This document shows, in pieces, positions 15,508 to 28,253 of a DNA stretch of 45,457 nt. Origin of the DNA: an uncultured Verrucomicrobiales bacterium (GTDB lineage Bacteria > Verrucomicrobiota > Verrucomicrobiia > Verrucomicrobiales > Akkermansiaceae); assembly GCA_913060685.1 (NCBI GenBank), contig CAJXVQ010000003.1:1-45457 (forward strand), written 5' to 3'. Under the pieces are notes generated by a model. It made no database searches. It was not told the origin of the DNA and saw nothing but the letters and a program-made list of their open reading frames with translations. How positions within the stretch are numbered: position 1 is the stretch's first letter; each line of letters begins with the position of its first letter. A program made the translations under genes and the position numbers.

Positions 15508-16572
15508 ATGCCAATTTATGTCGTCACCGGAACTGATGAAGGCCGGGTTTCCGAGGAAGCCTCCGCCCTCTTCGAGAGCCTTAAGGCTCCCGGGAGCGAT
15601 GAATTTTCCAATGAAATTATAGAGGGAGTGGCCGATAATTCCGAAGCCGCTTTCCAAAAATGCTCCTCAGCGATCGAGGCGCTGCAAACCCTTGGACTCT
15701 TTGCTGCCAACAAAGTCGTCTGGCTCAAAGGGGCCAATTTCTTCGGCACCGACCGCACCAGCGAAGCCGAGCGCGCTGTCACCGGAGTTGAAAACCTCCT
15801 TGAAGTCCTCCAGGACGACCTCCCCGATGGCGTCAACTTCCTCCTGAGTGCCACCGGCATCAACGGCGTGCGTCGCTTTGGCAAATGGGCCAAGAAAAAC
15901 ACGGAATATCAATCCTACGACAAAATTGACGTCTCCAAGGAAGGTTGGGAGGAACAAGTCGCCCGCATCGTGACCCGCATCGCGCGCGAAAAAAACCTCA
16001 CCCTCCAGGGCGAGGCGCTCGAACTCTTCGTTCAGCGTGCCGGCGCGGAAACCCGCCAAATCACCAACGAAATCGAAAAGCTCGACCTCTACCTCGGCGA
16101 CACCCGCCGTGAGGTCACCGTCGAGGACATCACCCTCATGGTTTCAGTCAGCCACAAAGGCGTCATTTGGGAAATCTCCCGCGCGGTCGAAACACGAAAC
16201 GCCAAACGCGCCATCGACCTCATCGACTCCCTCATCGCCAAGAACGAGAACGCCGTCGGCCTCATCAAAGCCTCCATCATCCCCACCGTCCGAAATCTTT
16301 TCTTTGCCAAACTCGCGGGTTCCTACGGCGGTCCCAGCCGCGCGCCCGCCGGTATCCAGGCCGTCCTCCCCAAGAAAAAAGACGGCACCGTCAATACCTG
16401 GGGCCTCAAAATGGCCGCCGTCGGGGCCAAAAACTTCACTCTCCCGCAACTCCAACAAGGGATGAGCGATTGCCTCGATGCCGACAAAGCCCTCGTCACT
16501 TCAGGCCAAGACCCCCGCATGGTTCTTCACAAGCTCGTCATCCGTCTGTGCGATGGCAGAAAAGTGGCATGA
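15508..16572 (+). CDS. holA: DNA polymerase III subunit delta
   Basis: This 354-residue protein is the delta subunit of the clamp loader, which opens the beta clamp for loading on DNA. It begins MPIYVVTGTDEGRVSEEA. It has the HolA order: an N-terminal AAA-like domain without a functional P-loop (about 1-140, including VVWLKGANFF), a middle domain with LFVQRAGAETRQITNEIEKL (about 180-205) and a C-terminal helical domain (about 220-354, including SHKGVIWEISRAVETRNAKRAI). Its last 46 bp overlap the 3' end of the convergent reverse transcriptase gene, which is unusual for a housekeeping gene. Confidence 0.9.
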   Translation: MPIYVVTGTDEGRVSEEASALFESLKAPGSDEFSNEIIEGVADNSEAAFQKCSSAIEALQTLGLFAANKVVWLKGANFFGTDRTSEAERAVTGVENLLEVLQDDLPDGVNFLLSATGINGVRRFGKWAKKNTEYQSYDKIDVSKEGWEEQVARIVTRIAREKNLTLQGEALELFVQRAGAETRQITNEIEKLDLYLGDTRREVTVEDITLMVSVSHKGVIWEISRAVETRNAKRAIDLIDSLIAKNENAVGLIKASIIPTVRNLFFAKLAGSYGGPSRAPAGIQAVLPKKKDGTVNTWGLKMAAVGAKNFTLPQLQQGMSDCLDADKALVTSGQDPRMVLHKLVIRLCDGRKVA

Positions 16573-17672
16573 TCCGTCCGCTGAAACATCTCCAGCAACT
16601 TTGCCCCGCGCCGGGCATTGACCATTTGCACCGCCGCAATTTTCCCACGCAAAACCTCCCTCTCGCCCGCCGGTGGCCCCGCGTGCAGCACCGCCTTGAG
16701 ACGGTCAAATTCCGCTCGACTGACATTCGGGTGCACATTCACCACCACCCCGGCCAGCCGCTGTCGCTGCGATGCCTTCATCACCCGCGTCTTCCTTGGA
16801 TTGATCAGGAACCCCTCCTCCAAAATGATCACGTTGACAAGGTCGCAAAACCCCTTGCCCACCCTCTCCCCGCTGAACGCCAAGTCATCGGCATACCGCG
16901 TATAAATCATCCCCGCTTTTTCAGCCAAGCCCGCCAAGCGGCAATCCAGCCGATACGCCACCGCATTCGCCAAGGCCGGAGAAGTCGGAGCCCCCTGCGG
17001 CAAATGCCTCGCCATCTTCGCCACCTCACCCGGCGGTTCGTGTGTGCAAAGCCCCGCCAAAACCCGAGCCACCTTCCTCCGGTATCCACACCGCTCAAAC
17101 ACACCCGTCACCCGCGCCGCCGTGATCGATTGAAAAAAATCCCCCAAATCCATCCTTACCACCACCTGCTTTCCACAATGCGGCTCCGCATAGCTCCGGA
17201 TCGACCGGCCCTCCCGAAACCCATGCACCGCTTCATGCAACGGGATCTCATTGACGATTGTCTCCAGAATCCGCCGTTGCGTGATCTTGAGCGACTCCTT
17301 CGGTTCCATCAGCAACCTCCGCCCACCCTTCCGCTTCGGAATCCAACGATACCGGTAGTGCCCCAAAGCCCCCCCATTCGGATTTCTCCCCGTCAAATCC
17401 GCAAACCATTCCAACTCCTCAATCCCCAGTCTCAAGTGTCCCGCCAACTCACCCACTGTTGTCAACACGGGCCCCCAGCCCTTCTTCATCTCCGGGATCT
17501 CCCGCGTCCAAGCCTCCGCTTGCAGTAACTTTGTCCCATACTTGGACAACTCCCGCTCCAACCACTTCTCCGAATACCCCATCTTCGGCAATTTGCGCGA
17601 AAAAAGCACCTGCAAATCCCCATCGCCGACTTCAGCAACGCGTTCCTCAATCGCCTGACGCACTTTCTTCAT
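16527..17672 (-). CDS. retron-type reverse transcriptase
   Basis: This 381-residue RNA-directed DNA polymerase has an N-terminal extension (1-105) that includes a short helical module (LAGHLRLGIEELEWFADL, 76-93) typical of retron RTs. Next come RT motifs: RLLMEPKESLKITQRRIL (119-136), VHGFREGRSI (149-158), motif A RMDLGDFF with Asp175, LPQGAPTSPALAN (224-236), YTRYADDLAFSG with the YADD catalytic box (260-263), GFLINPRKTRV (287-297) and a thumb (305-365). The retron NAxxH box is YAEPH (161-165) and the VTG box is LAG (306-308). A longer frame can start at TTG 17708, but ATG 17672 sits 11 bases after the structured RNA and is preferred. No effector domain is fused. The 3' end overlaps holA by 46 bp. 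Confidence 0.92.
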   Translation of the reverse strand: MKKVRQAIEERVAEVGDGDLQVLFSRKLPKMGYSEKWLERELSKYGTKLLQAEAWTREIPEMKKGWGPVLTTVGELAGHLRLGIEELEWFADLTGRNPNGGALGHYRYRWIPKRKGGRRLLMEPKESLKITQRRILETIVNEIPLHEAVHGFREGRSIRSYAEPHCGKQVVVRMDLGDFFQSITAARVTGVFERCGYRRKVARVLAGLCTHEPPGEVAKMARHLPQGAPTSPALANAVAYRLDCRLAGLAEKAGMIYTRYADDLAFSGERVGKGFCDLVNVIILEEGFLINPRKTRVMKASQRQRLAGVVVNVHPNVSRAEFDRLKAVLHAGPPAGEREVLRGKIAAVQMVNARRGAKLLEMFQRTDHATFLPSHRRMTSL

Positions 17673-17683
17673 TTGAAAAATCA

Positions 17684-17693
17684 AAAGCGCGGC
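17684..17693 (-). repeat. a2 arm of retron-type inverted repeat
   Basis: Plus-strand AAAGCGCGGC, perfectly complementary to 17853-17862. It lies 11 bp from the RT start codon. Confidence 0.75.
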
Positions 17694-17852
17694 AGAACAA
17701 CCTCCCAACCTGTCTCGCTGGGCTCCGCCCTTCTGGCATGAAATGCCACGAGGGCGGAGCGCCGGTCATGCTTGGTCATTCGATCCCCCGGGGATGCCCC
17801 GGAGAGATGGGTTGGATTTTCACCCAAATTCCACCCGCTTGGCAGTCACCCC

Positions 17853-17862
17853 GCCGCGCTTT
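17853..17862 (-). repeat. a1 arm of retron-type inverted repeat
   Basis: Plus-strand GCCGCGCTTT, the exact reverse complement of the arm at 17684-17693, with 159 bp between the arms. It marks the 5' limit of the candidate msr-msd RNA. Confidence 0.75.
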
Positions 17863-17997
17863 CCCCAAAACTTGAACGATGGCTCCAAAAAACCAAGCCC
17901 TCAAAACCCCTCCCGGCTATCTAAAATCCCTTCCAAAAAAATCCCCCAACTTGACGAACCTCCTTCAAAAGATGAGAGTTCCCCCATTAAACCGCGT

Positions 17998-20298
17998 ATG
18001 AAAATGCCCATGACAATTCGCTCTCTTGCCCTCGGCCTCCTTGCCGCCACCTCCATCGCCTCCGCCGATGTCACCGGCTGGCTCAACTGGAGGGGTCCCA
18101 ATCAAAACGGCACCTCCGCCGAAGCCAACCTCCCGGACTCCTGGAAACCAGGCGCCGACTCCCAACTCTGGAAATACGACCTCAACGGCGCCGGTGCCCC
18201 CGTCATTGCTGATGGCAAACTCTACATCTTCGGCTATGGCCAATTCGGCGACGATCCTGCCGAAGACGTCCAGGAAACCCTCCTCTGCCTTGACGCCATC
18301 ACCGGCAAGAAAATCTGGGAAAAACGCTTCACCGACTACATCTCCGACGTTGTCTACAACCGCTACGGCGTCGGATCCCCCGTTATCGATCCAGAAACCG
18401 GCAACGTTTACCTCCAAACCTCGAACGGACGTTGCGTCGCCTTCACCGCTGATGGCGAGCCTGTCTGGGAAATCTCCCTCATCGAAAAGCTCGCTCGTCT
18501 CACCTTCCCGAATGGCCGCACCGGATCCCCCGCTGTTTTCGAGAACCTTGTCATCTTCCACTGCGTCACCGCCAACTGGGGCACCACCGGTCCCGCCCGG
18601 GACCGCTTCTACGCCTTTGACAAAATCTCAGGAGAACTCGTCTGGTATTCCAGCCCCGGCATCCGCCCTGTCGACTCATCCTTCAGTATGCCCGTCTTCG
18701 GCCAACTCGGCGATCAAGCCGTCTTTTACGCCGGAACCGGTTGCGGCAACGTCGTCTGCGTCAACGCCCGCACTGGAAAACCCGTCTGGCGCTTCCAACT
18801 CTCCCAAGGCGGAGTGAATTCCCAAGTCGTCCTTTATGGCGACGACAAACTCATCGCCCTCCACGGCAAGGAAAACATCGACGCCACCTCCAAAGGCCGC
18901 CTCGTCTGCCTCAAAATTCCCACCGAGTATCCCAAGGAACAAGTCGTCCTCGATCCCGGCGTGGAACTCTGGCGCAATGACGAACACATCGGCTTCACCA
19001 GTTCCCCCATCCTGGTCAAAGATCGCGTCTACACCACCAACTTCACGGGCGAACTTATCTCCGTCGATGCCACCTCCGGCAAAACTCTCTGGCACGAAAA
19101 ACTTGCTCCCGACCAGATCCACGCCTCCCCGGCTTATGGTGATGGCAAAATCTACGCCCCATGGTTCGAGGGCTCCTTCGTCGTTGTCAAACCGACCGAC
19201 GCAAAAGCGGAAGTCCTTTCCCACGCCGACATCAAGGCCGACGACGGCACCGGCGTGAAGTGCCTCGCGGCCCCCACCATCTGGGCCGGCAAAGTCTACC
19301 TCTCCACCCGCGACGGCCTCTACTGCTTTGGAAACAAAGAGGGCAAGTTCATCCCGGAAAATTCAGCCAAAGCCCCGGTCCCTGCCGATAAACAAGACAC
19401 CAAGATCACCCAACTGCAAATCGTCCCCGCTGAATTCGCGATCTCCCCGGGACAGAAGCAGGACTTTAAAGTCTGGGGACTTTCAAAATCCGGACAGCGC
19501 GTCGCCGTTGTGAGCAGTGGCCTCTCTTGGGAAAAATTCGTCCCTCCCACCGCCAGGGTCAAAGCCGCCGTCGATGCCGCCCTCGACGCGAAGACCGGAA
19601 CCGTCACCGCCGCCGCTGACGCCAAGATCTCCGCAGGTGCCCTTAAGGTCACTTTCAATGGCATGTCCGCCACCACCCGCGGCCGCGTCCACGCCGGCTC
19701 GGGATATGCCGAGGACTTCGAAGCCGTCGATCTGAAAATGGAGTATGAGGGCGAGAAGGTGAATTTTCCTCCTCTCGCCTGGCTCGGTGCCCGCATCAAG
19801 TGGCATGTTCTTGAAAAGGACGGCTCCAAGGTCATCGCCAACCGCCTCGATAACCTCCTCTTCCAGCGCACCATGAACTTCTTCGGCGACCCCGAGATGA
19901 GTAATTACGTCCTCGAAGCCGATGTCATGACCGATGGCAACCGCCGGATCAAGTCCACCGTCGGGCTCGTCAATCAGCGCTACCTCATCACCCTCGTCGG
20001 CAACCAAGATACTCTCGAGGTTTCCAGTAACCACGAGCGAGTCAAAAAATCCGTCAAATTCCCCATCAAAACCAACACCTGGTATCACCTCAAAACCCAC
20101 GTCAAAGCCAACGACGACGGCACCGGCGAAGTCCGAGCCAAAGCCTGGCCCAAAGGCGAGGACGAACCTGCCGACTGGACCATCAAGGTCCCCGTCAAGC
20201 GCGTCCACCCGAAAGGCTCCGCCGGCGTCTTCGCTTTCTCTCCTCAAGCCCAAAAGCGCGTCTACGTCGACAATATTAAACTCAGCAATGCCAAGTAG
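17998..20298 (+). CDS. secreted PQQ-like beta-propeller protein with C-terminal lectin-like domain
   Basis: From ATG 17998 this is a 766-residue protein with a signal peptide (MTIRSLALGLLAATSIASA). It starts with the WLNWRGPNQNGTS motif of WD40-like PQQ-enzyme repeat proteins. Repeats of the type G(K)LYIFG / GKIYAPWFEG / GKVYLSTRDGLYC run to about residue 450. A linker with an Ig-like stretch (about 470-560) follows, then a jelly-roll-like domain (about 565-766, including YVLEADVMTDGNRRIKSTVGLV and TNTWYHLKTHVKA). Most members lack enzymatic proof and may bind ligands or act as dehydrogenases. The frame is open upstream to 17743, but that part crosses the candidate retron RNA and lacks a signal peptide. 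It is 35 bp from the next propeller gene, so the two are probably one operon. Confidence 0.87.
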   Translation: MKMPMTIRSLALGLLAATSIASADVTGWLNWRGPNQNGTSAEANLPDSWKPGADSQLWKYDLNGAGAPVIADGKLYIFGYGQFGDDPAEDVQETLLCLDAITGKKIWEKRFTDYISDVVYNRYGVGSPVIDPETGNVYLQTSNGRCVAFTADGEPVWEISLIEKLARLTFPNGRTGSPAVFENLVIFHCVTANWGTTGPARDRFYAFDKISGELVWYSSPGIRPVDSSFSMPVFGQLGDQAVFYAGTGCGNVVCVNARTGKPVWRFQLSQGGVNSQVVLYGDDKLIALHGKENIDATSKGRLVCLKIPTEYPKEQVVLDPGVELWRNDEHIGFTSSPILVKDRVYTTNFTGELISVDATSGKTLWHEKLAPDQIHASPAYGDGKIYAPWFEGSFVVVKPTDAKAEVLSHADIKADDGTGVKCLAAPTIWAGKVYLSTRDGLYCFGNKEGKFIPENSAKAPVPADKQDTKITQLQIVPAEFAISPGQKQDFKVWGLSKSGQRVAVVSSGLSWEKFVPPTARVKAAVDAALDAKTGTVTAAADAKISAGALKVTFNGMSATTRGRVHAGSGYAEDFEAVDLKMEYEGEKVNFPPLAWLGARIKWHVLEKDGSKVIANRLDNLLFQRTMNFFGDPEMSNYVLEADVMTDGNRRIKSTVGLVNQRYLITLVGNQDTLEVSSNHERVKKSVKFPIKTNTWYHLKTHVKANDDGTGEVRAKAWPKGEDEPADWTIKVPVKRVHPKGSAGVFAFSPQAQKRVYVDNIKLSNAK

Positions 20299-20333: not shown

Positions 20334-21854
20334 ATGAAAACCACCACCGCCCTCCTCCTTTCAGGACTCACCCTCACCGCCGCCGCCAAGGACTGGCCAA
20401 TGTGGGGAAACGACCCGACCCGAAATATGGTCGGAGAAGCAAAAGACCTCCCCATCGACATCAATCCCGGTGAACTTGATGACGAGACCGAAGCCGCCAT
20501 CCTCGACAGCGCCAAAAACATCAAGTGGGCCGCCAAGCTCGGCTCCCAGGCCTACGGCAATACCATTGTCGCAGGAGGAAAAGTCTACGTCGGCACCAAC
20601 AACGAGTCACCCCGCAACGATACCCAAAAAGGTGACCGTGGAGTCCTCATGGCCTTCGACGAAAAAGACGGTTCCTTCGCCTGGCAACTCATTATTCCCA
20701 AGCTCGGCGCCGGTAAGGTGAGCGACTGGGAATACGTCGGCCTCTGCTCATCTCCCGCGATCGAGGGAAATCGCATGTGGCTCGTCACCAACCGTGGCGA
20801 AGTCGTCTGCCTCGATACCGAAGGCATGGCCAATGGCAACGACGGCCCCTTCAAGGACGAAGCGAAATACATGGCCGTCGAAGACGAAGTTGTCAAAGTG
20901 ACCAAGCAACACGCCGACATCATCTGGATCTACGACATGCGTGAGGAACTCGGGGTCTTCCCGCATAACGTTTCCTCCTGCTCCCCTGTCATCGTCGGTG
21001 ACACCCTCTACACCGCCACTTCAAACGGGGTCGATTGGTCGCACACCAATATCGCCGCACCCAAGTCTCCCGCCCTCGTCGGCCTCGACAAGAAGACCGG
21101 CAAACTCCTCGTCGAGGAAGCCTCCGGGGTTTCCACCCGAGTCCTTCACGCAAGTTGGTCCTCACCCGCCTACGGAAAGATTGGTGATAAAGATGCCATT
21201 GTCTGGGGTGGTGGCGACGGATTCACCTACGCTTTCGACCCCAAGCCCACCAAGGACGAGGATGGCTTCGGCATCTTCAAGGAACTCTGGCGTCACGATT
21301 GCAACCCCGCCGAGTATCGCGAAAAAGATGGCAAGCCCATCAAATACGCCACCTACGCCGGACCCAGCGAAGTGATTGGCACCACCGTGATTGCGGACGG
21401 ACTCGTCTACGCCATCATCGGCCAGGATCCCGAGCATGGCGACGGAGTCGGACAAATCACCTGCATCGGACCGGATGGCAAAGCCAAGTGGACTTCGACG
21501 CTCGATCAAAAAGCAAAGGGATTCGTTGGTCGTTCCATCTCCACCCTCAGTGTCGCCGACGGCCTCCTTTACGCCGCCGAGTATGATGGTGACATCCACT
21601 GCTTCGATGCCAAGACCGGCAAGTATCATTGGACTCACGAAACCCAATCCCGCATCTGGGGTTCCACGCTCGTCGCTGATGGCAAAGTCTGGCTCGGCAC
21701 CGAGGATGGTGAACTTCACATCCTCAAAGCTGGTAAAAAACTCGAATCACTTGCCACCATCGAGTTTCCCGCTCCGATTTACAGTAGCGCCGTTGTTGCC
21801 AATGGCTCCGTCTACATCGTCACCCAGACCCACATCTACGCCATCGGCAAGTAA
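20334..21854 (+). CDS. secreted PQQ-like beta-propeller protein
   Basis: This 506-residue protein has a signal peptide (MKTTTALLLSGLTLTAAA) followed by DWPMWGNDPTRNMVGE, the usual opening of PQQ-like propellers. Repeats with the W-docking pattern follow through the whole length (GKVYVGTNNES, NRMWLVTNRGEVVCLD, DTLYTATSNGVDW, GLLYAAEYDGDIHCFD, GKVWLGTEDGELHI, GSVYIVTQTHIYAI). These count as about eight blades. It is probably periplasmic. It pairs with the gene before it and is closed by a clear terminator at 21882-21917. The substrate is unknown. Confidence 0.9.
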   Translation: MKTTTALLLSGLTLTAAAKDWPMWGNDPTRNMVGEAKDLPIDINPGELDDETEAAILDSAKNIKWAAKLGSQAYGNTIVAGGKVYVGTNNESPRNDTQKGDRGVLMAFDEKDGSFAWQLIIPKLGAGKVSDWEYVGLCSSPAIEGNRMWLVTNRGEVVCLDTEGMANGNDGPFKDEAKYMAVEDEVVKVTKQHADIIWIYDMREELGVFPHNVSSCSPVIVGDTLYTATSNGVDWSHTNIAAPKSPALVGLDKKTGKLLVEEASGVSTRVLHASWSSPAYGKIGDKDAIVWGGGDGFTYAFDPKPTKDEDGFGIFKELWRHDCNPAEYREKDGKPIKYATYAGPSEVIGTTVIADGLVYAIIGQDPEHGDGVGQITCIGPDGKAKWTSTLDQKAKGFVGRSISTLSVADGLLYAAEYDGDIHCFDAKTGKYHWTHETQSRIWGSTLVADGKVWLGTEDGELHILKAGKKLESLATIEFPAPIYSSAVVANGSVYIVTQTHIYAIGK

Positions 21855-21881
21855 GGTTGGGCCTTCCCGTATTTATCTCTC

Positions 21882-21917
21882 AAAACGGGCCTCGTGAAAA
21901 CGCGGCCCGTTTTTTTT
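21882..21917 (+). terminator. intrinsic terminator after the propeller gene pair
   Basis: A perfect 10-bp stem (AAAACGGGCC / GGCCCGTTTT) with a 12-base loop is followed by eight T in total. It starts 27 bp after the stop at 21854 and separates the propeller operon from the sulfatase. Confidence 0.9.
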
Positions 21918-22050
21918 CGCCCGTTCATTCCCGGATCATCCCTCCCCCTTTAAAACCACTTCATGATTCTCATACTCTGCACCGGCATCTCCTGAAAAAT
22001 GAAGACCGCCTCTCCCGTTGAGACCAAACTCTATTTCTTAATCCGTCTTT

Positions 22051-23622
22051 ATGAAGCCACTCCTTTTCCTCCTCATTCTCCAAAGTGCCTTTTCGCTCTT
22101 GGCACAAAGCAACCCGGAAAAAACCAACATCCTTCTCATCCTTGCCGATGATCTTGGTTACTCGGACCTTGGTTGCTACGGCTCTGAAATCAAGACACCC
22201 CATCTCGATTCCCTCGCCACGAACGGTCTGCGCTTTACCAACTTCTATAACACCGCCAGATGCTGGCCCACTCGGGCCGCCCTGATGACCGGCTACTACC
22301 CTCAGCAAGTTCGGAGAGACAGCATCAAGGGAAAACCAGGCAAGGGCGGAGGCAGAGGCAAGCGCCCCTCATGGGCTCCACTCCTCCCCTCTCTCCTCAA
22401 ACCCGCCGGTTACCGTTCCTACCATATCGGCAAATGGCACCTCGACGGCATGCCCGTCGCAGCCGGTTTTGACCGCTCATACTACCTCAAGGACCAAGGC
22501 CGGTTTTTCAACCCCCGCACCCACTACCTCGATGACAAACCACTCCCGACCATTAAAGAAGGAACTCACTTTTACGGCACAACCGAGCTTGCAAACCGGG
22601 CTCTTGAATTCCTAAAAGAGCACGATTCCAACCACAAGAACTCCCCCTTCTTCACCTATTTGGCTTTCGCCGCTCCCCACTTCCCGCTCCACGCCCTGCC
22701 CGCAGATATCGCAAATTACGAAAAAACTTATACTTCAGGCTGGGGAACTATTCGCAAACAACGGCACCGTCGCATGAGTGAGCTCGGTTTCCCCCACATC
22801 GCCCTATCCCCAGTCATGCCGGACCTTGGCCCACCCTACCACTTCCCCGGACATCTCAAAATCCTCGGTGAAAACGAAGTCAACCGCCCCTTGCCCTGGA
22901 CAAGCCTCACCGCACCTCAAAAGAATTTCCAGGCCCGCAAGATGGCCATTCACGCGGCCATGATCGATCGCATGGACCAAGAAATCGGACGGATCATTGA
23001 TCACCTCAAAAAGACCGGTCAATTTGACAACACCCTCATTCTCTTCCTCTCCGACAATGGTGCCAGCGCCGAAATCATGGTGCGCGATGATGGTCACGAT
23101 TCCAAAGCTCCCATGGGTTCCGCAGCCACCTACCTTTGCCTGGGACCCGGCTGGTCCACCACCGCCAACACCCCTTTCCGGAAGCATAAAACCTGGACCC
23201 ACGAAGGAGGAATTTCCACTCCCCTCATCGCTCACTGGCCCAAGAGAATCGATTCCAAACAAGAATTTCGGCACACCCCTGCTCATGCCATTGATATCGT
23301 CCCCACCATCTTGGAACTCACCGGCGCCAAGCCCGCCGACAAAGGCCCTCCCATCCCGGGAAAAACACTCACGCCCCTCTTTCGCGCCGACACCGCAAAT
23401 CACCATGAAGCACTCTGGTGGTCCCACGACGGGCACCACGCCATTCTGCAAAATGGCTGGAAGGCTGTCTCCTCAAGCAAGCAACCTTGGGAACTTTACC
23501 ATCTCACCAACGATCGTAGTGAAAACCAAGACCTCGCCGCGAGACACCCTGATAGGCTCAAAAAGCTCATTACCCTTTGGAATGAACGCGCCGACCAATA
23601 TCTCGCGGACGCTAAAAAATAA
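22051..23622 (+). CDS. secreted sulfatase with canonical formylglycine motif
   Basis: This 523-residue S1-family sulfatase removes sulfate esters, probably from a polysaccharide. It has a signal peptide (about 1-19), metal-binding ADD at 32-34 (LILADDLGYSDLGCYG) and the maturation motif C71-W-P-T-R75 (converted to formylglycine) followed by AALMTGYYP. It also has GKWHLDG (about 130) and the later metal motif LSDNGAS. The start follows a 196-bp gap with no other gene. The next gene (DUF1080) begins 44 bp on, consistent with an operon. The S1 subfamily cannot be fixed by eye. Confidence 0.93.
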   Translation: MKPLLFLLILQSAFSLLAQSNPEKTNILLILADDLGYSDLGCYGSEIKTPHLDSLATNGLRFTNFYNTARCWPTRAALMTGYYPQQVRRDSIKGKPGKGGGRGKRPSWAPLLPSLLKPAGYRSYHIGKWHLDGMPVAAGFDRSYYLKDQGRFFNPRTHYLDDKPLPTIKEGTHFYGTTELANRALEFLKEHDSNHKNSPFFTYLAFAAPHFPLHALPADIANYEKTYTSGWGTIRKQRHRRMSELGFPHIALSPVMPDLGPPYHFPGHLKILGENEVNRPLPWTSLTAPQKNFQARKMAIHAAMIDRMDQEIGRIIDHLKKTGQFDNTLILFLSDNGASAEIMVRDDGHDSKAPMGSAATYLCLGPGWSTTANTPFRKHKTWTHEGGISTPLIAHWPKRIDSKQEFRHTPAHAIDIVPTILELTGAKPADKGPPIPGKTLTPLFRADTANHHEALWWSHDGHHAILQNGWKAVSSSKQPWELYHLTNDRSENQDLAARHPDRLKKLITLWNERADQYLADAKK

Positions 23623-23666
23623 GAACAGCTCTTTCCAAGAGATACTCCCGAACGATAGCCTCATGA

Positions 23667-24407
23667 ATGTCATTTCTAAAAGGACTCCCTATCGCGATCG
23701 GCCTCTCCATCTCATCTTTGACGGCTCAGGAAAAAACTGTCGCTCCTCCAACCACGGAATTCGGCTTCGTCAATCTCTTCAACGGCAAGGACCTGACCAA
23801 TTGGATCGACGTTAACACCTCGCCTAAAACCTGGTCGGTCAAAGACGGCCTGCTTATTTGCTCCGGCCAACCCATCGGAGTCATGCGCTCCGAAAAACAA
23901 TACGAGAACTTCATCCTTGTCGTGGAATGGCGACACATGGAAGCTGGAGGCAACTCAGGCGTCTTTCTCTGGAGCGATGCCAAACCCAGCGGCAACCGCC
24001 TTCCAAAAGGAATGGAGGTTCAAATGCTCGAACTCGAGTGGCCTTATATCCACAAGAAGCGCGACGGTTCCCCCAATCATCCCGGCTACGTCAGCGGCGA
24101 ACTCTTCGGCGCGGGCGGAATGAAGGCGACCCCGGAAAACCCCCGGGGGAGCCGCAGCATGTCCTTTGAAATGCGCTGCAAAGGTAAAGGCGAGTGGAAC
24201 CAATACGTCATCGTCGCAGTCGATGGCACGGTCAAGCTCTCCATCAACGGGAAGTTCGTCAACGGCATCCGCGAAGCCGATCTCCGCAAAGGATACCTGT
24301 GCATGGAGTCCGAAGGGGCCGAGATTCACTTTCGGAAAATTCAAATCATGGAGCTCCCGGGCGGACGGGCTGCCGATCTCGGCATGACTTTAGACTCGAA
24401 GTCATGA
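23667..24407 (+). CDS. secreted DUF1080 (3-keto-disaccharide hydrolase-type) protein
   Basis: This 246-residue protein has a signal peptide (about 1-20) and one DUF1080 domain (about 33-232). Motifs are [58 protein letters not shown] and [10 protein letters not shown]. The family has a concanavalin-like fold, and some members hydrolyse 3-keto-glycosides. Being between two sulfatases supports a role in glycan breakdown (inference). An overlapping ATG at 23663 is in another frame; 23667 gives the signal peptide. Confidence 0.92.
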
Positions 24408-24523
24408 GCGAACGCAATCAGTGCGGATCGACCTTGTAGGCACTTCGGGATTCGACTCCATCGGCAGGACTCATTTCTCTTTTTTGGTCGGAAGCCATCT
24501 CGATATTCTGTAGGTTCCCGGAA

Positions 24524-25963
24524 ATGAAAACCGTTTTTCTTCTTTTCGTCGCCCTTGTCTTTGCGCCGGCCTTGCTCGCCAAGAAGCCAAATTTCCTCTT
24601 CATCCTCGTTGATGACCAATCCCCCTTTGATCTTAAGATCTACAATCCCAAGTCCCCTCTCGAGACCCCGAACATCGACAGCCTCGCTAAGGAGGGCCTC
24701 GTCTTCGATGGCTCTTACCACATGGGTTCCTGGAGTGGTGCGGTTTGCACCTGCTCGAGAACGATGATCATGACGGGGCAAAGCGTTTGGCACATTCCAA
24801 AGAACTCCAAAAAGAATCCTAAAAAACAAGTCCCCCGGGGCGCTCAGCCCGAAATCCAGACCCTCCCACGGGTCTTCAATCGAGCCGGCTATGAAACGAT
24901 GCGCACTTGCAAACGGGGCAATAGCTACAGCTTGGCGAACAAACAATTTCAAATCGTCAAAGATGCCACCAAACGCGGTGGCACGGACGAAACAGGCTCG
25001 CACTGGCACGGCCAGCAAGTCATGGACTATCTGACCGACCGTGAGGCCAAGAAGACCGAAGACCCCTTTCTCATCTACTTCGGCTTCTCCCACCCGCACG
25101 ATGAGCGCAACGGCAAACCGGAGCTCCTTGCCAAATACGGAGCCAAAAACCATCGGGACAAAAACTCAATCCCCGCTCTCCATCCCAAGCAGCCCCCACT
25201 CCCGATCAACTATCTGGAAAAGCACCCTTTCCCACACGGACATCCCGGACTTCGTGATGAAGTCAAAGTTCCGGGAGTCTGGGAGAACCGCGACGAGGCG
25301 ACCATTCGCAATGAGCTCGGAAGAGAGTTCGCTTGCTCTGAAAACATCGATATTCAGATCGGCCGCGTGTTGAAACAACTCGAAGCGATGGGCGAACTTG
25401 AGAACACCTACATCATCTATACCTCCGATCACGGCATGGCCATTGGGCGGCACGGCCTGCAGGGAAAGCAAAACCTCTACGAGCACACTTGGCGCGTTCC
25501 CTTTATTATTAAAGGCCCTGGAGTCAAAAAAGGTCGGGTTCAGGGAAACATCTACCTCATGGATTCTCTTGCCACCCTCTGTGACCTCGCCGGTATCAAA
25601 ACTCCGGAAACAAACGAAGGCATCAGCTTCAAGCCTGTCCTGACTGGTGAGAAAACGATCATTCGCGACACCCTTTTCGGTGTCTATGCAGGCGGCACCA
25701 AACCCGGCATGCGCTCCGTCCGCAAGGGCGATTGGAAGCTCGTGAAGTTCGACGTCCTCGATGGAGCCGTGCGGGAAACCCAGCTCTTCAACCTCAAAGA
25801 GAATCCCAACGAGTATCTCCAGCAACACGGGAAACAGAACCCCAAACTTGTCGACCTCGCCGAGGACCCCGCTCATGCGGCCAAACTCGCGGAAATGGAG
25901 GCTCTCCTCAAAGACGAGATGGTGCGACTTCACGACCCCTACCCCCTTTGGAATCAAAAATAG
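24524..25963 (+). CDS. secreted sulfatase with C-x-C-x-R instead of C-x-P-x-R
   Basis: This 479-residue S1-family sulfatase has a signal peptide (MKTVFLLFVALVFAPALLA). The metal motif VDDQ is at 29-32. The maturation region reads GAVC75-T-C-S-R79-TMIMTG, so the proline or alanine expected two residues after Cys75 is a cysteine. Other conserved parts look intact: HPHDERNG, YTSDHGMAIGRHGLQGKQN, ENIDIQIGRVLKQLEAMGE and RKGDWKLVKFD near the end. So it is likely folded and possibly active through a relaxed FGE/anSME recognition (inference). It follows the DUF1080 gene by 116 bp and is convergent with the next gene 10 bp away. Confidence 0.92.
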   Translation: MKTVFLLFVALVFAPALLAKKPNFLFILVDDQSPFDLKIYNPKSPLETPNIDSLAKEGLVFDGSYHMGSWSGAVCTCSRTMIMTGQSVWHIPKNSKKNPKKQVPRGAQPEIQTLPRVFNRAGYETMRTCKRGNSYSLANKQFQIVKDATKRGGTDETGSHWHGQQVMDYLTDREAKKTEDPFLIYFGFSHPHDERNGKPELLAKYGAKNHRDKNSIPALHPKQPPLPINYLEKHPFPHGHPGLRDEVKVPGVWENRDEATIRNELGREFACSENIDIQIGRVLKQLEAMGELENTYIIYTSDHGMAIGRHGLQGKQNLYEHTWRVPFIIKGPGVKKGRVQGNIYLMDSLATLCDLAGIKTPETNEGISFKPVLTGEKTIIRDTLFGVYAGGTKPGMRSVRKGDWKLVKFDVLDGAVRETQLFNLKENPNEYLQQHGKQNPKLVDLAEDPAHAAKLAEMEALLKDEMVRLHDPYPLWNQK

Positions 25964-25973
25964 AATCGACGAT

Positions 25974-26861
25974 CTAACTGGTTGGAACTGCTTTCACTCG
26001 AAAGAATTTTCGGTTCTCCAACGCACCGACGATTTTAAAAACCAGCTCGTCAGGCTCATCGACCACGATTTCAAATCCCGTGGTCATGGTCGTGAATCCC
26101 GAAAGATCTTCGCTTCCCTGTAGCAACCACTCAACCTGACGCCCGGGCACTCTCGGAACGAAAATCTCGAGTCTCGAATTGAGTTCCACATGAAACGGAG
26201 GGTCCTTTGTTCGCGGGTCGGAATCGAGGGCATACTCCAGGAAGTTGGAGCGACCATCGCCGTCAAAATCCGCCTCAGGCAGACTCGGCTCTCCAGAGTC
26301 AAACTCCTGCTCCACCCAAGCCTCGTAGGTGAGATCGAATTCCGCCAAAGCGGTCTCCATGTAAAATTTTCCGTCCCCGGTCTCATTCACGGCTCCCAAA
26401 ACAACATCTTCGGGCTCAGTGGCCATGGCCACCAGCCATCGGACTGGAAAGGGTGGAGGCCCACCGGGATTGGCGTTGGGCCACTTCCAGGCCGGCTTCC
26501 CGATGAGAATCCATTCGCTTCCCGAATCGGTGCCGTTCCTGCCCCAAATGTAGGCACGGGCCGTGGTTTCAAACGGTGCGGCGTTGTTCGCGAGACTTTG
26601 GGAATTCGAAAAGCCCCCCCATTCCGGAGAGTAATCGGCGGTCCCGAATGGTCGAAAAGTTGCTTCCCAGTCTCCCAGATTCTCGGAGCCGGGAGTGAGT
26701 CCAACGAAGGTCCCGAGAACGAACTCAAACCCCTCATCGAGAGGTGTCACCCCATCGCTTTGGAGGTCACCGGCATTGAGATCACTACTCCACTCAATCG
26801 AAATTGCCGCCGCAAGCCTTGCGACCATGAGCACCAGAAGAATGACATGGAATCTTTTCAT
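25974..26861 (-). CDS. secreted hypothetical protein with calcium-binding-type repeat
   Basis: This 295-residue protein has a signal peptide (about 1-19). It starts ISIEWSSDLNAGDLQSDG, and the middle (about 60-185) is rich in Trp/Gly/Pro. At about 195-215 it has EADFDGDGRSNFLEYALDSDP, a thrombospondin-type-3 or dockerin-like Ca-binding loop often found near the C-terminus of secreted Verrucomicrobiota proteins. A short beta domain ends FFRVKAVPTS. It stands alone on the minus strand inside the sulfatase cluster. I do not recognise a family for the N-terminal domain. Confidence 0.75.
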   Translation of the reverse strand: MKRFHVILLVLMVARLAAAISIEWSSDLNAGDLQSDGVTPLDEGFEFVLGTFVGLTPGSENLGDWEATFRPFGTADYSPEWGGFSNSQSLANNAAPFETTARAYIWGRNGTDSGSEWILIGKPAWKWPNANPGGPPPFPVRWLVAMATEPEDVVLGAVNETGDGKFYMETALAEFDLTYEAWVEQEFDSGEPSLPEADFDGDGRSNFLEYALDSDPRTKDPPFHVELNSRLEIFVPRVPGRQVEWLLQGSEDLSGFTTMTTGFEIVVDEPDELVFKIVGALENRKFFRVKAVPTS

Positions 26862-27068
26862 TGGAAGGAAGCAAAACTAACACTCCTCCCTCGTCATCCA
26901 AGTTGAAAGGACTCCCAAGGAGACCAATCAATCAGTTCTTTCGACGAAGAAATCCCAGTGTTGAAACGCCGGGGAACTTTCCTGAGAGAGCGCGCACCTA
27001 TCCTGCCCGGATCTCAGAAAAATCGCATTGGGTGAAAACTCCCGGACTGGGAGCCGGTAGGCCTAAAC

Positions 27069-28253
27069 ATGATGAAGCACTCGATTTTCAACCCCTGCGT
27101 TCTTCTTTTCCTGCTCAACTCTTGCCTCGCCTCGACCGGCAGCGCGCGGGAAGCCCCCCTCTTTGACGGTAAAACCCTCAACGGTTGGACCGCTCTTCCC
27201 GGTGGCACTTGGACTGTCGAAAATGGAGCGATCGTTGGCAAGAGTCCCAAGAGCGAGAAACGGCACGGAATGCTCCTTTCCGACAAACAATACTCCGACT
27301 TCGTCGTCACCGCAAAATTCCGTGTGCTCTCGGGTGATAGCGGGTTCTACTTCCGCTCCGAGCGCGTTAAAAGCAATGTCAGCGTCAACGGCTTTCAGGT
27401 TGAGGTCGATAGCTCGCAAGAAACCGGGGGCCTCTATGAGACCGGCGGTCGGGCCTGGGTCCACAAACCCGGTGAGGAGGTCATTGGCAAGCGAAACTAC
27501 AAGCCCGGCGAATGGACGACCCTGGAACTCCGCGCTGTCGGACGCGATCTCGAAGTCAAAATCAATGACATCGTCACCTCAAAACTCACCAACGACAAAG
27601 GCCGTTTGAAAGGACACTTCGGGCTGCAGCTTCACGGCGGACAAGACATGCACGTAGAGTTCAAAGACATTGGTATTCGCGAGATCACGACCGGGACCGG
27701 GTTTGTCGAATTGTTCAACGGTAAGGACCTGACAGGCTGGAAAACCAGCGGGAATTGGGTCGTCGAAAAAGAGAACGTTATCACCCTAAAGCCACGCCCC
27801 GGTGAAAGCGGCTGGCAACGCTACGATGACTACCTGGCCACCGAACGGAAATACGGCGACTTTGTTCTCGATCTGGAATTCAAATTCGAGCCCACCGGAA
27901 ACTCAGGCGTCTTCATGCGGATCGGCGATCTTAAAAACCACGTCACCAGCGGATTCGAAGTCCAGATCCTCGATACCCACAATAAGAAAAAATTTGGGGC
28001 ACACGACTGCGGAGGCGTCATCGGAACTTCTCCTCCCAAAAAGATGGTGGTGAAACCTGCCGGCGAATGGAATCGCTATACCATTACCCTCAAGGGTTCA
28101 CTCCTCAAGGTCGTTCAAAACGATGTCCTCATTCAGGATCTTGATCTCTCCAAGACCGGCCTGAAAGACCGGCCTGCGAAAGGACACATCAGCTTTCAAG
28201 ATGAAGCCAAGAGAGTGTGGTATCGAAACGTCCGTATCAAAGAACTGAAATAA
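27069..28253 (+). CDS. secreted protein with two DUF1080 domains
   Basis: This 394-residue protein has a signal peptide (about 1-26) and two DUF1080 domains in tandem. The first covers about 28-205 (APLFDGKTLNGWTALPGGTW, GDSGFYFRSERV, VNGFQVEVDSS, HVEFKDIGIREI). The second covers about 212-394 ([54 protein letters not shown]). The domains are diverged, so this is an old fusion. It probably works on the same glycan as the neighbouring sulfatases (inference). It stands downstream of a 207-bp gap with nothing else recognisable and is followed by the repeat-rich gap. Confidence 0.9.
   Translation: MMKHSIFNPCVLLFLLNSCLASTGSAREAPLFDGKTLNGWTALPGGTWTVENGAIVGKSPKSEKRHGMLLSDKQYSDFVVTAKFRVLSGDSGFYFRSERVKSNVSVNGFQVEVDSSQETGGLYETGGRAWVHKPGEEVIGKRNYKPGEWTTLELRAVGRDLEVKINDIVTSKLTNDKGRLKGHFGLQLHGGQDMHVEFKDIGIREITTGTGFVELFNGKDLTGWKTSGNWVVEKENVITLKPRPGESGWQRYDDYLATERKYGDFVLDLEFKFEPTGNSGVFMRIGDLKNHVTSGFEVQILDTHNKKKFGAHDCGGVIGTSPPKKMVVKPAGEWNRYTITLKGSLLKVVQNDVLIQDLDLSKTGLKDRPAKGHISFQDEAKRVWYRNVRIKELK

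Follow-up and report, generated by a model that had tools for sequence, protein, structure and literature searches.

The stretch of DNA analysed here, 45,457 nt of contig CAJXVQ010000003.1 from an uncultured Verrucomicrobiales bacterium (referred to below as the window), carries a gene for a reverse transcriptase (RT) and a structured RNA just upstream of it. Judging from the sequence and its predicted folds, the two very probably form a complete two-part retron. The RT gene (16527–17672, minus strand) encodes a protein of 381 amino acids with an intact YADD motif and a shortened N-terminal domain, and the candidate retron non-coding RNA (msr–msd) lies at 17684–17862 on the same strand. Both are placed between two host genes on the plus strand that do not belong to the retron, namely holA (DNA polymerase III delta, 15508–16572) and a gene for a beta-propeller protein of the PQQ/BamB-like type (17998–20298). 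The 1,429-bp gap between these genes contains only the RNA and the RT. The 3′ ends of the RT gene and holA share 46 bp (16527–16572) in tail-to-tail orientation, and the last residues of the RT encoded in this overlap are absent from 14 aligned relatives.

The RNA is delimited by the repeats a1 (17853–17862) and a2 (17684–17693). As described in an earlier note made from the sequence of this region, they are exact 10-bp complements, and the RT start codon (ATG, 17672) stands 11 bases beyond a2. The minus-strand sequence 17684–17862 folded with an energy of −96.9 kcal/mol, compared with −72.6 kcal/mol (sd 4.5) for 200 shuffled sequences, none of which equalled it (z −5.4). The note had taken the RNA to be closed by the 10-bp repeat; the repeat is indeed exact, but the full closing stem has roughly double that length. 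Minimum-energy folding of the window sequence gave 21 pairs, G-U pairs and a bulge included, and the family model described below has 20. The 5′ strand of the stem (17839–17862) extends from a1 to CCAA at 17839–17842, the innermost bases, which pair with TTGG at 17705–17708, and the 3′ strand (17684–17708) runs from there to a2. Right after the stem, within the bases AAGC, is G17838, the predicted priming (branching) guanosine. The three hairpins noticed earlier between the arms were found again with slightly different edges: msr stem-loop 1 at ~17805–17836, msr stem-loop 2 at ~17786–17804, and the msd hairpin at ~17720–17763. When folded as DNA, the predicted complementary DNA (cDNA) forms a hairpin as well (z −3.9). 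Judging from where the stem ends, the template for reverse transcription would be 17709–17773, with an uncertain far end that leaves a template of ~60–70 nt.

A 10-bp repeat of such placement is only moderately rare by chance: it occurred in 91 of 12,646 overlapping 350-base windows of the contig. The repeat alone is therefore unconvincing, and the a1/a2 pair is regarded as secure because it is conserved in the RNA family. The regions upstream of the RT at 20 loci of the window's taxonomic family were aligned and share one layout, with double changes at 25 of 34 predicted consensus pairs. Fifteen of these sequences, including that of the window, were used for the covariance model R1. The remaining five (L004, L005, L034, L041, and L044), some of which aligned badly or were divergent, were kept out of the model and then used as a test. 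In the 15 sequences double changes were seen at 28 of the 51 named pairs, compared with 11.9 in shuffled alignments. R1 matched the window at 17683–17862 with 141.6 bits, the window sequence itself being part of the model, and recovered the RNA at all five held-out loci, at L034 in part only. The RNA was also found (E ≤ 1e-4) at 74 of 76 further GTDB loci from several phyla. The GTDB scan found at least 561 relatives and kept the best 80, so these loci are the nearest by RT similarity; L060, L065, L072, and L104 were omitted (duplicates of family loci; L072, contig edge). Altogether, R1 found the RNA at the same threshold at 94 of 96 clade loci, 15 of which are in the model.

The 94 RNAs were then compared in one alignment, which was fitted to R1 and hence leans toward the pairs of the model. 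Double changes were present at 49 of the 51 pairs (37.7 in shuffles), and the covariation score was 0.531, compared with 0.160 for shuffled and 0.059–0.075 for slid alignments. All 20 pairs of the closing helix and all eight pairs of msr stem-loop 1 showed double changes, and covariation likewise supports the msd hairpin. No element of the family is more conserved than msr stem-loop 2, in which 96% of the cells are paired and two G-C pairs are invariant in 94/94 sequences. The bases following the closing stem are mostly (A/G)AG(C/T), with the G conserved in 92 of the 94 RNAs. In known retrons, the priming guanosine is described at the inner end of the stem, usually in TAGC and sometimes in CAGC or GAGC (PMC6868368). 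The position of G17838 fits this rule, with 17709 as the predicted first template base. The earlier expectations that stems of the RNA would covary, and that homologous RTs would carry such a structure upstream, were thus borne out.

The protein encoded at 16527–17672 is an RT of retron type. It matched Pfam RVT_1 at 7.5e-22, and among the PADLOC models it scored best on RT_other (PDLC02949, 407 bits), followed by RT_outgroup (PDLC03740, 382 bits) and RT_XIII (322 bits). The two best profiles aligned from residue 51–60 onward. When the sequences of solved structures were searched, retron RTs were the best matches, with the Ec86 retron RT at the top (1.9e-36). The AlphaFold2 model of the protein had a mean predicted local distance difference test score (pLDDT) of 87.9, and in the Foldseek comparison of this model with PDB structures retron RTs occupied the first 18 of the 50 matches listed, ahead of RTs of group II introns, diversity-generating retroelements (DGR), and defence-associated RTs (DRT). 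The ratio of nonsynonymous to synonymous substitution rates (dN/dS) between the RT and its nearest relative, which is 77% identical and equally short at the N-terminus, was 0.22 overall and 0.18 in the core. Purifying selection was seen in all five pairs of clade RTs tested. In the Planctomycete relative L078 the N-terminal helical domain, trimmed in the window species, was predicted with confidence (AlphaFold2 pLDDT 93.9 overall). A fold search with this domain of L078 gave no usable match, the 50 listed of 1,366 matches being RTs.

In the phylogenetic analysis, the window RT was placed in one clade of 55 rows with a support of 100/99, made up of all 20 loci of the taxonomic family together with 35 of the 80 from GTDB, L138 included. 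In a second tree, calculated without the long-branch rows L016 and L017, the RT of the Myxococcus xanthus retron Mx65 was added, which fell outside the clade, and a Myxococcus member, which fell inside; the clade then had 56 rows and a support of 100/98. Its sister group is formed by 17 other RTs holding Mx65 and an Mx162-like RT (support 94/86). Two substitutions mark the clade. In region X, 45 of 55 rows have F or Y where the NAxxH motif has N, and the VTG position reads LAG or AAG in 35 of 55; three rows retain the N and two retain VTG. According to the record titles, many of them of metagenome bins, members of the clade occur in Verrucomicrobiota, Planctomycetota, Acidobacteriota, Pseudomonadota, Myxococcota, and Actinomycetota. 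One member, L067, comes from a metagenome bin titled Bordetella parapertussis, a title that may be a mislabel. Among mobile elements, matches were seen at four loci on viral contigs, all distant (29–30% identity), and in 45 phage and 477 plasmid records, all below 60% identity.

With some exceptions, the RNA follows the RTs of this clade. At 55 of 77 GTDB loci with an R1 match, no more than 35 nt separated the end of the RNA from the RT start that a script had assigned. Among the 27 genomes of the window's genus, the RNA was found in four, which are the same four that have a stop-free RT frame; as these four are in R1, the informative part is the absence of the RNA from the other 23 genomes. 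In the family of Pyxidicoccus, a clade RT was present at E ≤ 1e-100 in 18 of 96 genomes, and the RNA was found at all 17 clade loci picked by RT score (L182–L198) and at one divergent locus (L200). Meanwhile, R1 gave no match at the loci of other RTs, either at 22 such loci in the phylum or at 13 in the family of Pyxidicoccus.

The clade was compared with the retrons that it resembles most. The earlier note had recognised no described retron here. This holds for the RNA relative to Rfam, which gave no match at gathering score and, at E ≤ 1, only two weak matches to microRNA and long non-coding RNA families, far below their thresholds. It does not hold for the RT, which is not an unknown enzyme because its family is already catalogued as RT_other/RT_outgroup; five relatives (L078, L083, L079, L035, and L034) match these models over nearly the full length, for example L078 over residues 3–440. 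The comparison with PADLOC covers its protein models; the description of the RNA family, with its priming site, and of the gene neighbourhoods comes from the present analysis. Thus, from the sequence comparisons, the RT family and the kind of element are already known, and the RNA family is new relative to Rfam. A literature search by title and abstract found no paper on the clade; works on retron classification and census lie outside that search.

Mx65 (Retron-Mxa2) was at first considered a possible founding member of the clade because its RT lacks the N of NAxxH and because it primes from GAGC (PMC6868368). Its RT, located through published coordinates (PMC8934634) in a genome fitting the M. 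xanthus type strain, also has an N-terminal extension. However, it lies outside the clade, has GAAPH as its own region X, and scores best on RT_XIII, and R1 found no match in the Mx65 locus at E ≤ 10. Mx65 was therefore rejected as the founder. The same genome, which fits strain DSM 16526, contains besides Mx65 a member of the clade at G664:C5:214433–215952 (L178, L196, and L212), with the RNA at 214433–214614 and the RT at 214636–215952. Mx162 (Retron-Mxa1), of type XIII, stands on a branch next to the clade, and the retron RTs of that branch likewise have an extended N-terminus. It was compared through the Pyxidicoccus RT L172, which we take to be Mx162-like and which scores 515 bits on RT_XIII. 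L172 lies outside the clade, keeps both NAxxH and VTG, and has no R1 match. Since both retrons stand outside the clade and have no R1 match (Mx162 by way of its relative), the clade is neither Mx65 nor Mx162. The closest solved structure is that of Retron-Eco1 (Ec86), a retron of type II-A, both by fold (Foldseek E 2.1e-25) and by sequence. By the title of entry 7v9x, Ec86 was solved together with its effector, whereas no effector was found near the window RT. The taxonomic family of the window also contains a second type of retron RT with a long N-terminal extension (L046–L049 and L053–L055), of which the one scanned, L055, scores best on RT_XIII (592 bits), and four genomes (G307, G442, G447, and G477) have matches to both types.

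Retrons are now described as phage-defence systems composed of an RT, an RNA, and an effector (PMC12548924). For the examination of possible effectors, the neighbours of the clade RTs were clustered using 518 open reading frames (ORFs) of at least 70 aa; seven of 80 loci, at which the RT was not recovered by the ORF filter, were dropped. No gene family was common to more than four of the 73 loci. PADLOC was applied to 106 of 142 direct neighbours and found no family in more than one of them. The 36 others had been excluded by hand and were mostly short or RNA-overlapping ORFs, with a few longer ones (L104, L111, L115, and L124). Reading by eye of 24 close same-strand downstream ORFs revealed no common theme. 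Thus, no effector gene of the sort that accompanies the RT in tripartite defence retrons of types I–XIII was detected beside the window RT or in the clade neighbourhoods scanned. An effector fused to the RT in its N-terminal domain is conceivable. Among the 28 ORFs of the window, PADLOC gave three single matches.

The holA site was also inspected in other genomes of the genus. In seven genomes with holA and the PQQ gene adjacent and no retron RT match, the gap between the two genes was 81–386 bp. In G580 (L143/L051) the same site has a 901-bp gap with a broken RT interrupted by internal stops and no RNA match. The 294-bp gap of G587 (L145) has no RT match and contains a degenerate copy of the RNA with a score of 83 (the best of 300 shuffles scored 35), which is a scar of a lost retron. 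A search for such scars in four of the seven short gaps gave no similarity. Meanwhile, G589 has an intact RT adjoining holA. The PQQ gene was seen at 10 of the 25 holA loci read, the other loci ending or holding something else; L165, a 43-residue end of holA, was omitted from this survey. These observations fit a retron long present at the holA site and lost repeatedly, and gain in some lineages is also possible. Beyond the PQQ gene, the window has at 20334–28253 a second PQQ-type beta-propeller gene followed by two sulfatase and two 3-keto-disaccharide hydrolase genes within ~6 kb, perhaps for polysaccharide breakdown.

Several results weigh against the interpretation of the locus as a working retron. 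Region X of the window RT reads YAEPH and not NAxxH, and the position of VTG, a usual signature of retron RTs, is occupied by LAG. Both signatures are common and not universal: NAxxH is given for 14 of 16 validated retron RTs, and the N is missing in the other two, Mx65 included (PMC6868368). As validated retrons also lack NAxxH, the motif was not treated as defining. The N-terminal domain of the window RT is short and poorly predicted (pLDDT 50–68, residues 1–60). A scan of 17600–18050 for sigma-70-like promoters found none. R1 found nothing at L138 and gave a weak match at L082 (E 0.015). At the other 22 of the 77 GTDB loci, the RNA and the assigned RT start lie over 35 nt apart, with 461 nt at L063 as the largest distance; these starts were uncurated, and the large distances arise partly because the script preferred ATG. 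At L052 (G558) the RNA (45 bits) stands beside a clade RT broken in two, so RNA and intact RT are not always together. Finally, as no effector was found, the usual tripartite mechanism of defence is unsupported. As for transcription, the family consensus has TTTTGACG ~30–35 bases 5′ of a1, which resembles a −35 element, so the transcript would start near a1; in the window itself no good match to a promoter was seen.

Four other explanations were weighed. The locus could be a retron by descent that is decaying or inactive in the window species, the genus seemingly being in the course of losing the element. The stop-ridden RT of G580, the RNA scar of G587, and the short empty gaps agree with this, as do the trimmed N-terminus and the 46-bp run of the RT C-terminus into holA. 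However, the YADD motif and all five helices of the RNA are intact in the window, and the low dN/dS was measured against a relative with an equally short N-terminus, which makes decay improbable. The RT might also use the upstream RNA in some other way than for 2′–5′ primed multicopy single-stranded DNA (msDNA), for example as a regulatory leader or as the template of a DRT-like defence RT. The altered NAxxH and VTG speak for such a use, as does the failure to find an effector nearby, but we consider it very unlikely, as retron RTs are the closest folds, before DRT and group II RTs, and the closing stem, the priming G, and the msd hairpin are conserved.

That the element belongs to type XIII, or closely copies Mx65 or Mx162, is suggested by RT_XIII as the third-best PADLOC model. 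This is harder still to uphold: RT_other or RT_outgroup gave higher scores than RT_XIII for the window RT and for the six RTs of the clade that were scanned, Mx65 and the Mx162-like RT fall outside the clade and have RT_XIII as their best model, and R1 does not find the Mx65 RNA at E ≤ 10. Least probable of all are ordinary intergenic hairpins, such as terminators, standing by chance beside an unrelated RT. The background frequency of the 10-bp repeat would allow them, but the covariation of the RNA and its association with a single RT clade refute a chance repeat. The candidate retron proposed from the sequence alone is thus supported by the RT phylogeny, the fold, the architecture of the RNA, the covariation, the priming guanosine, and the RT–RNA association.

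As a retron, the element would work as follows. The transcript would fold on the a1/a2 stem, and the RT would bind the msr hairpins. The 2′-OH of G17838 would prime cDNA synthesis opposite 17709, and copying would pass through the msd hairpin and stop after ~60–70 nt. The product would be a short msDNA that forms a hairpin, is linked to the msr RNA, and stays bound by the RT. From the sequence features, production of msDNA is very likely. The role of the element could be phage defence or genome surveillance by the RT–msDNA particle, with any effector located elsewhere or provided by the N-terminal helical domain of the RT; this is weakly supported, and we see the chances for and against it as equal. 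That no effector was found makes the standard toxin/antitoxin form less likely.

The RT and its RNA are kept across several phyla, with purifying selection on the RT in the five pairs tested, and no adjacent effector was found, which raises the question of how a toxin-less retron functions. It is conceivable, though in our view less likely than not, that the whole multi-phylum clade is a two-part element without a dedicated effector, the output of which is the N-terminal helical domain of the RT or an msDNA acting on host proteins. The small predicted msd may also offer a compact scaffold for the RT-DNA toolbox. As a genome fitting the M. xanthus type strain has a relative of the element, the role of the clade is testable in that harmless laboratory organism. 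If the clade is indeed effector-free, it would be a widely distributed group of retrons to which the toxin/antitoxin model does not apply.

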